This document shows positions 24,363-28,179 of a DNA stretch of 32,214 nucleotides, piece by piece. The DNA lies in the NCBI GenBank assembly GCA_030600085.1, contig JAUVMT010000005.1, positions 1 through 32,214 of the forward strand, read 5' to 3'. The notes below the pieces were generated by a model, which saw only the letters and a program-made list of their open reading frames with translations, made no database searches and was not told the origin of the DNA. This DNA is from Gemmatimonadales bacterium. GTDB taxonomy: Bacteria > Gemmatimonadota > Gemmatimonadetes > Palauibacterales > Palauibacteraceae. How positions within the stretch are numbered: position 1 is the stretch's first letter; the number at the start of each line of letters is the position of its first letter. Position numbers and translations under genes: made by a program.

Positions 24363-25265
24363 TCAGCGCTCGCTCGCCAGCCAACGGTACAACCCCCGCA
24401 CGTTCAGCGCGAACCACTCCGCGTAGCCGCCCCACGACGCGTACTCGTCCAGGCTGATCCGCTCGGCCGCCTCGTCTTCGCTCCACCCCGCGTCGAGCGC
24501 CTGCTGAACCGCGTCGCGCAGATCCCCGTAGTAGGCGATCTGCCGCTTCACGGCGCCGCGATCTCCAACCGGCCCGTGCCCGAAGGCGATCGTCTCGAAC
24601 TCCAGCGTGTCCAGCGCCTCGAGCGCCAGGAAGAACTCACGGAACTGGTGGCTGCCGAGGTCGCGATATCCGACGCGATCGTTGGCCACGAAGTCCACGG
24701 CGAAGGCGATGCTCGCATCGGGTATGAGCCCGACGATCATGCTCGCCGTGTGGCTCGGGCCGAGGTAGACCAGGCGGACCTCCCGTCCCCCCGGCCTCAG
24801 GGTGAGGCGGCCGCTGAAGGTCAGGTCGGGTGGCGGGAGGCTGGGATTCGCCGCCTCCAGGAGGGGCGCCAGCCCGTTCTCGTGGCCGATGATCAGGGTT
24901 CGGCCGCCGAATATCGCTCGCAGCACACCGGCGCCCGAGGCATGGTCGGCGTGATGGTGACTGTAGACGATGGCGAGAAGCGGGACGCCGGGAGCCACGG
25001 CCCGGATCTCCTGGGCCAGGATGCGGGCCGCATCATCGGAGATCGGATCGAACGCGACCACGCCGTCGTCCGTGACGACGAACAACGTGTTGTGGGCTCC
25101 ATAGCTGAACTGGAAGACCCCATCCGCCAACTCCGTCGTCGCCCACTCCGTCTCCTGGGCCGAGGCTTCCGTTTCAGAGAACAGGCCGCCCAGAACGCTC
25201 ACCGCCAGAATCGACGCCAGCGCGAGCCGGCTCCGCAACCGGAGCGCCTTCCGGATGACGCCCAT
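24363..25265 (-). CDS. Exported MBL fold metallo-hydrolase
   Basis: Start taken as ATG 25265 (MGVIRKALRLRSRLALASILAVSVLGGLFSETEASAQ, signal peptide); IVYSHHHADHASGAGVL, FGHGPVGDRGAV. ATG shares one base with the dnaN stop (TGATG). Confidence 0.88.
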   Translation of the reverse strand: MGVIRKALRLRSRLALASILAVSVLGGLFSETEASAQETEWATTELADGVFQFSYGAHNTLFVVTDDGVVAFDPISDDAARILAQEIRAVAPGVPLLAIVYSHHHADHASGAGVLRAIFGGRTLIIGHENGLAPLLEAANPSLPPPDLTFSGRLTLRPGGREVRLVYLGPSHTASMIVGLIPDASIAFAVDFVANDRVGYRDLGSHQFREFFLALEALDTLEFETIAFGHGPVGDRGAVKRQIAYYGDLRDAVQQALDAGWSEDEAAERISLDEYASWGGYAEWFALNVRGLYRWLASER

Positions 25266-26368
25266 CAATCCAGAAGCCTCAGTGGCATCACGAGGCAAAG
25301 GTAGTCGGAGCCACCTTCCGCGGGCTGCAATGTCGCTGCCCGCTCCGGAGCCTTGAAGCTAAACTTCACATCGTCGTCCGACATGTAGCGCATCACCTCG
25401 AGAAGGTAGTTCGCGTTGAAGCCGATTTCGAGCGACTCTCCATCGTAATCGACCGCAAGCTCGTCCTCGGCCTCGCCCAGGTCGGGCGTCTGCACGCGGA
25501 ACTTCAACACGCCAGGCTCGAACAGCAGCCGGACCCGGTGGGTCTGGTCGCTCGCCACGACGGCCATCCGCCGGATGGCGGACTCCAGGCCGGCACGGCT
25601 CGCCACAACCTCCTTGTCGTTGTCCTTCGGTATGACCTGATCGAAGTTCGGGTACGGGCCCTCGATCAGGCGAGTGAAAACGGCGCGCCGCTCCGAGCGG
25701 AAGGCCAGGTGGTTCGCAGACCGGGCGATCTCCAGCTGCTCTTCGGCGTCGAACAGCCGTTGCACCTGGCCGAGCGCTTTCGGCGGCACGATCAGATCTG
25801 CCTCCGGGGCGCCCGCCTCGTGGAGGTGCTTGGTCATCATGGCGAGCCGGTGTCCGTTCGTCGCCACCATCGTCGTCGACTCCGGCCGGAGCTGCCAGAG
25901 CACGCCATTGAGGATCGGCCGGCTCTCTTCGGTGGACGCGGCGAACGAGGTGTGGGAGATCAGCTCCTGGAGCGCCTCGGCAGACATCTTCCAGCTCTCC
26001 GAGAAGTCCACCTCCGGGAAGGTCGGGAACTCCCCTTCCGGGAGGCCATAGAGCTTGAATTTGCTCCGGCCACACTCGATTCGTATCTGATCCTGATCGG
26101 CGATCAGATGGACCGGAGCGTCCTCGAGCTCCCGGGTGATCTCCGAGAACTTCTTGGCGGGGACGGTCACGGCTCCCTCGGCCTCCACCTCCGCATCGAT
26201 CGCTACCTGGACGGAGATGTCCAAATCGGTACCGCACAGCTGTACCGAGTCCCCGTCCGCCCTGAGCAGGATATTGGAAAGCACCGGTAGCGTCGTCCGC
26301 GCCGGGATCGTGGCGGAGACGGCTCCCAACCCCCTCTGCAGCTTCTCACGTGTAATGGACAGCTTCAT
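25265..26368 (-). CDS. dnaN: DNA polymerase III subunit beta (sliding clamp)
   Basis: 367 aa; MKLSITREKLQRGLGAVSATIPARTTLPVLSNILL, TNGHRLAMM, C-terminal YLCLVMPLRLLD. Confidence 0.97.
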   Translation of the reverse strand: MKLSITREKLQRGLGAVSATIPARTTLPVLSNILLRADGDSVQLCGTDLDISVQVAIDAEVEAEGAVTVPAKKFSEITRELEDAPVHLIADQDQIRIECGRSKFKLYGLPEGEFPTFPEVDFSESWKMSAEALQELISHTSFAASTEESRPILNGVLWQLRPESTTMVATNGHRLAMMTKHLHEAGAPEADLIVPPKALGQVQRLFDAEEQLEIARSANHLAFRSERRAVFTRLIEGPYPNFDQVIPKDNDKEVVASRAGLESAIRRMAVVASDQTHRVRLLFEPGVLKFRVQTPDLGEAEDELAVDYDGESLEIGFNANYLLEVMRYMSDDDVKFSFKAPERAATLQPAEGGSDYLCLVMPLRLLD

Positions 26369-26429
26369 TCGGAACCTCGTTGGTCCGGCGATGGAAAAAG
26401 TGGCGTAGTAATTCTATCCCTACCTGTAG

Positions 26430-26476
26430 AAATAAATCTTAGTAGTAGCAGTAGGGCGCGTTGGAAAGTGGAAAAC
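26430..26476 (+). other. Candidate oriC basal unwinding element: AT-rich tract, DnaA-trio repeats, GC spacer, DnaA-box-like sites
   Basis: 5'-aaataaatct TAG TAG TAG CAG TAG ggcgcg ttggaaagtggaaaac-3'; trios at 26440-26454, GC-rich spacer 26455-26460, box-like AGTGGAAAA 26467-26475 (reverse complement TTTTCCACT, 7/9 to TTATCCACA). Lies in the dnaA/dnaN intergenic region. Confidence 0.7.
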
Positions 26477-26702
26477 CTCTCGCTGACAGGCCGAGCAGAC
26501 CCGAGCGGTGGGCGATGACGGGTGTGGCAGCCGTGTCGAACGTTGGGGGAAGCCGGTGGCGAAGAGACAGGCTGGTTCCACACCAGCGACCCAATGGCAC
26601 TCTTCATCCACCCCGATCCGGGCTGGCTCCACGCCATCCGCGTCATCTTTCGACAACCCGTGGGAAAACCGGTGACGTTGACCATCCGGCCGTCGATCCA
26701 GC

Positions 26703-28082
26703 TCAACTGGCCAGCGCTTCCTGAAGCCTGCGAACCTGCGACCGGAAGGTAGGATCGCCCGCCATCTGGGCTTCCACTTTGTTGACCGAGTGAATGACTG
26801 TCGAGTGGTCGCGCCCGCCGAAGATCGACCCGATGTCCGTATACGGTAGATCGAGGGTCGTCTTGATGAGGTACATGGCGACTTGGCGAGGCACGACCAG
26901 GGTGCGGGTCCGGCGCTTGGACTTCATGTCGTCGACGGTCACGTTCCAGTGCTCGGCGGTCCGCTCGACGATCTGCTCCGGCGTGGTCCGAACGCGTTCG
27001 GCGTACTGTTGCGGCTCGGTGTCCAGCGCCTCGCGCGCCAGGTCCAGGTTGATCTCCCTGCGCGTGAGCGAGCTGAAGGCGAGCAGCTTGATGAGGGCCC
27101 CCTCGAGCTGGCGCACGGAGGTCTTCCTGATGCGGGCGATGTACTCGATGACCTCGTCGTCCATGGACAGGCCGTCTTCTTCGGCCTTCTTCTGCAGGAT
27201 GGCGATGCGCGTCTCGAAGTCGGGCGGCTTGATGTCGGTGACGAGTCCCCACTCGAAGCGCGAGACGAGGCGCTCCTGGAGTCCCGGGATCTCAGGAGGC
27301 GGCCGGTCCGACGTGATGACGATTTGCTTCTGGGCATCGTAAAGCGCGTTGAACGTGTGGAAGAACTCTTCCTGAGTGCCCTCCTTGTTTCCCAGGAAGT
27401 GCACATCATCAACAAGGAGAACGTCGATCTGGCGATACCGCTGCCGGAAGTTGGCGGTTCGACCGCTCTTGATCGCGCCGATCATCTCGTTGGTGAACTG
27501 CTCGGATGTCGTGTAGACGACCCTGCGCTCGGCGAAGCGATCGAGAATCGCGTGCCCGATCGCGTGCATCAGGTGGGTCTTGCCGAGCCCGGTATCGCCG
27601 TAGATGAACAGCGGGTTGTACGCCGCGGCGGGGGCGTCGGCGACCCGGCGGCAGGCGGCGGTGGCGAGCTGATTGTGCCCTCCGATCACGAATCGATCGA
27701 ATCGATAGCGGTCGTTCAGGCCGATGGCGGCGGGATCGGTCGGAAGCGGCACGACCTCGTGACCGAGGTCGTCCACCACCTCCTGGCCCAGGGGCTTTCC
27801 CCCGAGCTCCGGGAACTCCAGGCGCTCGTCCTGTCCATGGTGCTCGAAGCGGACCTGCAGCGGCCTTCCAAGCTCCCGCTCGGCCAACTCCCGAAGCAGT
27901 CCGCCGTACTTATCCTCGATCCACTCCACTGCGAACTTCGTCGGCGCGCCCACGACGAGGGTCTCGTCAGTGAGCGCGATCGCTTCCGTGGAGGCGAGCC
28001 AAGTCGCGAACGTCTGCTCCGGCAGCACCTCCTGGGAGGCTTGAGCGATGCGGGACCAGACCTGGGTGGCGGTTAGTTCCAT
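26703..28082 (-). CDS. dnaA: Chromosomal replication initiator protein DnaA
   Basis: Start at ATG 28082 (MELTATQVWSRIAQASQEVLPEQTFATWL); NPLFIYGDTGLGKTHLMHAIGH, DVLLVDDVHFLGNKEGTQEEFFHTFN, C-terminal GGRDHSTVIHSVNKVE. Confidence 0.98.
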   Translation of the reverse strand: MELTATQVWSRIAQASQEVLPEQTFATWLASTEAIALTDETLVVGAPTKFAVEWIEDKYGGLLRELAERELGRPLQVRFEHHGQDERLEFPELGGKPLGQEVVDDLGHEVVPLPTDPAAIGLNDRYRFDRFVIGGHNQLATAACRRVADAPAAAYNPLFIYGDTGLGKTHLMHAIGHAILDRFAERRVVYTTSEQFTNEMIGAIKSGRTANFRQRYRQIDVLLVDDVHFLGNKEGTQEEFFHTFNALYDAQKQIVITSDRPPPEIPGLQERLVSRFEWGLVTDIKPPDFETRIAILQKKAEEDGLSMDDEVIEYIARIRKTSVRQLEGALIKLLAFSSLTRREINLDLAREALDTEPQQYAERVRTTPEQIVERTAEHWNVTVDDMKSKRRTRTLVVPRQVAMYLIKTTLDLPYTDIGSIFGGRDHSTVIHSVNKVEAQMAGDPTFRSQVRRLQEALAS

Positions 28083-28179
28083 CCGATGTCGTTTGCTACC
28101 TACCGGGAAGGCTCGGGGCCGGTCGATAATTCCGGGCCGAGAGCCGGGGGGCGTCAACCTAGACGGACCGCTCGCGAGT

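Follow-up and report, generated by a model that had tools for sequence, protein, structure and literature searches.

A basal unwinding system (BUS) has been predicted in 1755 of 2070 bacterial origins; the bacteria in which its function was tested include Deinococcus radiodurans, Helicobacter pylori and Synechococcus, and unwinding by DnaA has been reconstituted (PMC8287927). The rules of that search call for a DnaA box that differs from TTATCCACA at no more than 2 positions, optionally followed in tandem by a second box with up to 4 mismatches, a spacer of no more than 16 bp between the box and the first trio (with a peak at 10-13 bp) and at least three DnaA-trios of the form 3'-NAN-5', among which 3'-GAT-5' is the commonest in the published set (PMC8287927). 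In Thermotoga maritima, the annotated trio only supports unwinding, while another TAG module, the eTrio, is essential (PMC10316083). Not every species therefore has to rely on a trio array as its essential element. The 2023 BUS paper names the positioning of the second helicase on the other strand as an open question.

We analysed a stretch of 32,214 bp (the window), which is one whole contig of a draft Gemmatimonadota genome (2.25 Mb, 279 contigs, 88.7% complete), and compared its dnaA-dnaN spacer with these systems and with the spacers of related genomes.

Layout of the dnaA-dnaN spacer

The initial annotation of this DNA placed a BUS-type origin between dnaA and dnaN, and its two gene calls are borne out by Pfam matches (Table 1). 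The spacer spans exactly 26369-26702 (334 bp) and both flanking genes lie on the minus strand; dnaA followed by dnaN is also the gene order in every one of the 115 Gemmatimonadota loci in which the two could be located. Read along that strand, the order of elements that the annotation had described (DnaA-box-like sites, a GC spacer, five triplets, AT-rich DNA and then dnaN) is confirmed, and the string it quoted occurs in a single copy in the window.

Table 1. Coordinates of the genes and of the observed or predicted origin features in the window
Feature	Position	Strand	Sequence	Remark
dnaN, DNA polymerase III beta clamp	25265-26368	-		Pfam PF00712/PF02767/PF02768, E 3.6e-37 to 5.9e-27
AT-rich unwinding region (predicted)	26400-26439	.		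62.5% AT vs window mean 33%
Weak or remnant opposite-strand array	26405-26416	+	GTA GTA ATT CTA	not significant in the window alone
Five DnaA-trios	26454-26440	-	CTA CTG CTA CTA CTA	bound strand 3'-GAT GAC GAT GAT GAT-5'
GC-rich spacer, 4 bp	26458-26455	-	CGCC	
DnaA box 2 (weak)	26467-26459	-	TTTCCAACG	4 mismatches; 4 bp from trios
DnaA box 1	26475-26467	-	TTTTCCACT	2 mismatches to TTATCCACA; 12 bp from trios
Degenerate DnaA-box-like site	26574-26582	+	GGTTCCACA	6/9 to consensus; GTGGA core invariant in six congeners
Degenerate DnaA-box-like site	26604-26612	+	TCATCCACC	7/9 to consensus; GTGGA core invariant in six congeners
dnaA, replication initiator	26703-28157	-		Pfam PF00308 E 1.8e-69, PF08299 E 2.2e-27

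The two DnaA boxes, both imperfect (2 and 4 mismatches), overlap by one base (26467). The trio run is 15 bp long, with four of its five trios reading 3'-GAT-5', and on the plus strand it appears as 5'-TAG TAG TAG CAG TAG (26440-26454). Directly beyond the trios lie 40 bp so rich in A and T that only 0.07% of all 40-mers in the window reach that level. In its boxes, 12 bp spacing, trio number and central A on the bound strand, the block follows every sequence rule of the published search (PMC8287927), and its 12 bp distance between box 1 and the trios falls inside the published 10-13 bp peak.

The annotation also listed further box-like 9-mers upstream in the spacer. All of them lie where it had placed them, but one, TTTTCCCAC (26668-26660), scores 5/9 as a 9-mer rather than the 6/9 it was given, which the region reaches only when the frame is moved along by one base. 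The other two sites (26604-26612 and 26574-26582) are probably genuine weak DnaA sites, because the GTGGA core is kept in all six congeners. A hairpin at 26571-26587 (GCTGGTGTGGAACCAGC), flagged as terminator-like and located downstream of dnaA, includes the box-like GGTTCCACA on the other strand.

Conservation, initiator and origin assignment

We searched for the combined pattern of a box with at most 2 mismatches, a gap of 0-16 bp and at least 4 CTA/CTG triplets. It was found at a single place in the window, and 1.6 Mb of sampled sequence from three related genomes gave 0 matches. When the spacer was aligned with those of six congeners, 30 of the 37 columns of the BUS block (26476-26440) were invariant (81%), compared with 44/226 (19%) upstream and 28/71 downstream, making the block the best-conserved part of the dnaA-dnaN spacer. 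Box 1 reads TTTTCCACT or TTCTCCACT in six of six congeners, and the box 2 position reads TTTCCAAC, again in six of six.

The same arrangement extends across the phylum. When up to 3 box mismatches are allowed, the BUS pattern is present in 90 of 117 Gemmatimonadota dnaA-dnaN regions. The spacing between the best box and the trios is 12 bp in 53 and 4 bp in 20 of the 115 loci, which are the window's two box distances, and a separate lineage (family f11) carries a perfect TTATCCACA together with CTAATAATAATA-type trios. A loss of the triplets and their spacing in relatives, named in advance by the initial annotation as evidence against its reading, was not seen: both are kept in the congeners and in the phylum. 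Beyond the phylum, no BUS adjoined dnaN in the Nitrospirota loci sampled, and Acidobacteriota and Chloroflexota yielded too few for the motif test. In genus g6 of the window's own family (L036, L038, L040-L042 and L044-L047), boxes 1 and 2 read TTTTCGACA and ACTTCGACA, with CG replacing CC, a sequence change that suggests a lineage-specific DnaA box.

The cognate initiator retains the residues that hold the trios. The window's DnaA aligns with B. subtilis DnaA from the BUS complex (8btg_A) over residues 32-482 (phmmer E 2e-125); N187, I190, R202 and E228, which hold the trios in 8BTG, correspond to identical residues N223, I226, R238 and E264, and the arginine finger R264 is likewise identical (R300). 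Among helicase-loading partners, DciA was found in 30 of 31 relatives' genomes, while the DnaD domain (PF07261) was found in 0 of 31 genomes, including the window's own (a draft, 88.7% complete), with positive results in the B. subtilis and L. lactis controls. As no DnaD-domain protein was detected in relatives, recruitment to the second strand through DnaD and a DnaD recognition element (DRE) is unlikely in the Gemmatimonadota lineage. In one Acidobacteriota genome (G203), the DnaA C-terminal domain was matched eight times; seven of these matches are weaker and scattered and are possibly other proteins sharing that DNA-binding domain.

Because the block fits the published rules, is rare, is conserved in congeners and phylum and is accompanied by a DnaA with its trio residues kept, we conclude, with a probability of roughly 0.9, that it is a BUS, the unwinding module of the chromosomal origin in a Gemmatimonadota bacterium. 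The order of elements, their spacing, the identity of the triplets, the AT-rich flank, the position of dnaN, the conservation and the cognate DnaA all support what the annotation had proposed.

A GC-skew analysis, which the annotation had suggested as a check, was run on samples of three genomes. In a congener assembled as one contig (G005, 27% sampled), there was no significant skew split, either raw or at gene-corrected third codon positions; the split was matched or beaten by 235 of 300 raw and 142 of 300 third-position permutations. Two more distant, finished single-contig genomes (G168 and G035, ~10-12% sampled) showed no raw GC-skew switch at dnaA in their samples. With no skew detectable in the samples, this check lends the origin position no independent support. 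The assignment is based on gene order, the motif and its conservation, and skew-based origin prediction is unreliable for these three genomes.

The opening of this origin most likely proceeds as follows. Domain IV of DnaA would occupy the overlapping boxes (26475-26459), and the DnaA oligomer would then extend over the GC spacer and onto the trios, holding the plus strand (26440-26454) as a single strand. This would open the AT-rich stretch lying between trios and dnaN, as reconstituted for other species (PMC8287927), and lead to helicase loading; a DciA-type operator is present in this lineage, with no DnaD-domain protein detected. We infer that replication of the window organism most likely starts at this spacer and, likewise, that DnaA binds and unwinds the DNA and that the helicase is loaded there.

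An opposed array in related spacers

The annotation's reading of the spacer holds for the forward BUS, but it overlooked a trio-like half on the opposite strand, weak in the window and clear in its relatives. Counted over dereplicated spacers (<75% identity in the segment) and compared with dinucleotide shuffles, a null that is not tree-aware and leaves same-family spacers non-independent, at least two in-frame opposite-strand TAG/CAG/AAG triplets follow the AT-rich stretch in 39 of 73 Gemmatimonadota spacers, versus 12.2 expected (maximum 19 in 200 shuffles). The control, CTN on the forward strand in the same test, yields 6 versus 5.1 expected. NTN runs on the reverse strand with a score of 8 or more are similarly enriched (33/73 versus 7.5 expected; forward control 7 versus 4.1), as are opposite-strand triplet pairs 3 bp apart (51 versus 16.1 expected, maximum 32). 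Enrichment persists when AAG is dropped, so that TAG/CAG alone are counted, and the 20 bp preceding dnaN are left out (17/71 versus 5.6, maximum 10). The position of these mirror triplets tracks the trios (MAD 3.0 bp) and less so dnaN (MAD 8.5 bp).

An inverted DnaA box located 28-43 bp beyond the trios (about 36 bp) is present in 31 spacers, versus 2.2 expected (maximum 6). The opposite-strand array is clearest in families f5 (9/10) and f7 (7/16) and the inverted box in f6 (12/15); at the cut-offs used, both occur together in only 10 of 73 spacers. The rigid 12/4 bp spacing between box and array, sought by eye on the mirror side, was not seen.

Outside the phylum, in-frame opposite-strand pairs are present in 14 of 17 Deinococcota spacers versus 6.6 expected (maximum 11), one of them reading AGTCGTAGTAGCAG before dnaN. 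In a sample made up mostly of Bacillota, opposite-strand trio pairs were not enriched (2/30 versus 2.5 expected). Inverted boxes were found in 6 of 29 spacers from other bacteria, versus 2.0 expected; examples come from one Saganbacteria locus and a small number of Clostridia, and the inverted box alone was therefore rejected as a phylum-specific trait. Individual spacers provide further observations. In Deinococcota (L371-L395), TAGTAGCAG / GTCGTAGTAGCAG arrays are found on the opposite strand ~20-40 bp past the forward trios, and in several of these loci the array lies directly before the likely dnaN ribosome-binding site. On the far side of the Candidatus Saganbacteria spacer (L106) there is a near-perfect mirror BUS, with an inverted TTATCCACT, 12 bp and then CTATTATTA on the opposite strand.

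Within the window's genus, the place homologous to the remnant array in Table 1 reads GTTCTACTC, GTTCTTCTGCTT or GTTCTTCTACTT in the congeners, with AGAA..AC invariant in all six, and neither the window nor its genus shows an inverted DnaA box at the distance of about 36 bp.

One account of the mirror half, which we put forward tentatively and at clearly less than even odds, is that Gemmatimonadota and Deinococcota origins contain two facing trio arrays around one AT-rich stretch. The second array, accompanied by the inverted box in many relatives, would receive a second DnaA oligomer on the opposite strand, each oligomer would guide one helicase, and bidirectional replication would proceed without DnaD; in the window, this half would have eroded. 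The opposing array would then be a candidate substitute for DnaD and the DRE, with DnaA itself taking the second strand. The phylum-wide enrichment of opposite-strand triplets and their positional tie to the trios argue for two opposed halves, as do the enrichment of the inverted box in Gemmatimonadota, the occurrence of opposite-strand trios in Deinococcota and not in the mostly Bacillota sample, and relatives that possess DciA with no DnaD domain detected. However, the window has only GTA GTA ATT CTA without an inverted box, the mirror box-to-array distance looks less regular than the forward one, both parts coincide in few spacers, same-family spacers are not independent and the placement of a helicase is pure inference.

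Rather than being origin DNA, the TAGAA/GTAG bases conserved between trios and dnaN could belong to a dnaN promoter or leader. They sit 5' of dnaN, and -10 elements adjoining ORFs are common in Deinococcota (PMC12340547). No sigma-70-like promoter was found in 26340-26720, however, the position of the element follows the trios and not dnaN, and the 3-bp periodicity exceeds that of dinucleotide shuffles. We consider a dnaN promoter a doubtful and less likely cause of the conserved TAGAA. Finally, the forward triplets are almost certainly not a chance or microsatellite-like repeat in ordinary intergenic DNA, a reading to which the shortness of the 15 bp run lends itself but which is refuted by the conservation tests, with no box-plus-trio pattern in the 1.6 Mb of related DNA, position and spacing kept across the phylum and a BUS block far better conserved than the surrounding spacer.

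Novelty and comparison with known origin systems

The forward BUS is a known kind of origin in a little-studied phylum, and it extends a well-supported plan for origin opening to Gemmatimonadota, with an intact cognate DnaA. In the open-access literature, we found no paper linking DnaA-trios to Gemmatimonadota or treating the origins of the phylum. A search of the same literature, whose scope takes in few subscription papers, returned no description of an opposed trio array, and the mirror-image half of Gemmatimonadota origins seems to be undescribed. The opposite-strand array of the relatives matters more than the forward BUS, as it would bear on the placement of the second helicase and is open to mutation, also in Deinococcota. 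In that phylum, a DnaA unwinding assay has already been reconstituted for a cultured relative. If true, the mirror half could explain how replication starts in both directions.

The forward block most resembles the BUS of B. subtilis (PMC6669920, PMC8287927, PMC10721633), with which it shares a box pair, a short GC spacer, CTA-type trios, AT-rich DNA and dnaN in the same order and polarity. Unlike B. subtilis, the window has weaker boxes and a high-GC genome, and the search of its relatives turned up no DnaD-domain protein. Compared to the predicted BUS set, the block fits all of its sequence rules (PMC8287927).

The mirror half has two partial counterparts. In T. maritima, the eTrio and DnaA-trio also provide a second TAG module near the trios, which T. 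maritima DnaA binds as single-stranded DNA; however, both of its modules are on the upper strand (PMC10316083), whereas the second Gemmatimonadota array is on the opposite strand and faces the first. The DRE of B. subtilis, like the mirror half, is a proposed recruiter of a second helicase to the other strand. The DRE is bound by DnaD and lies directly opposite the trios (PMC10201434), whereas the mirror array lies beyond the AT-rich stretch and would be bound by DnaA.
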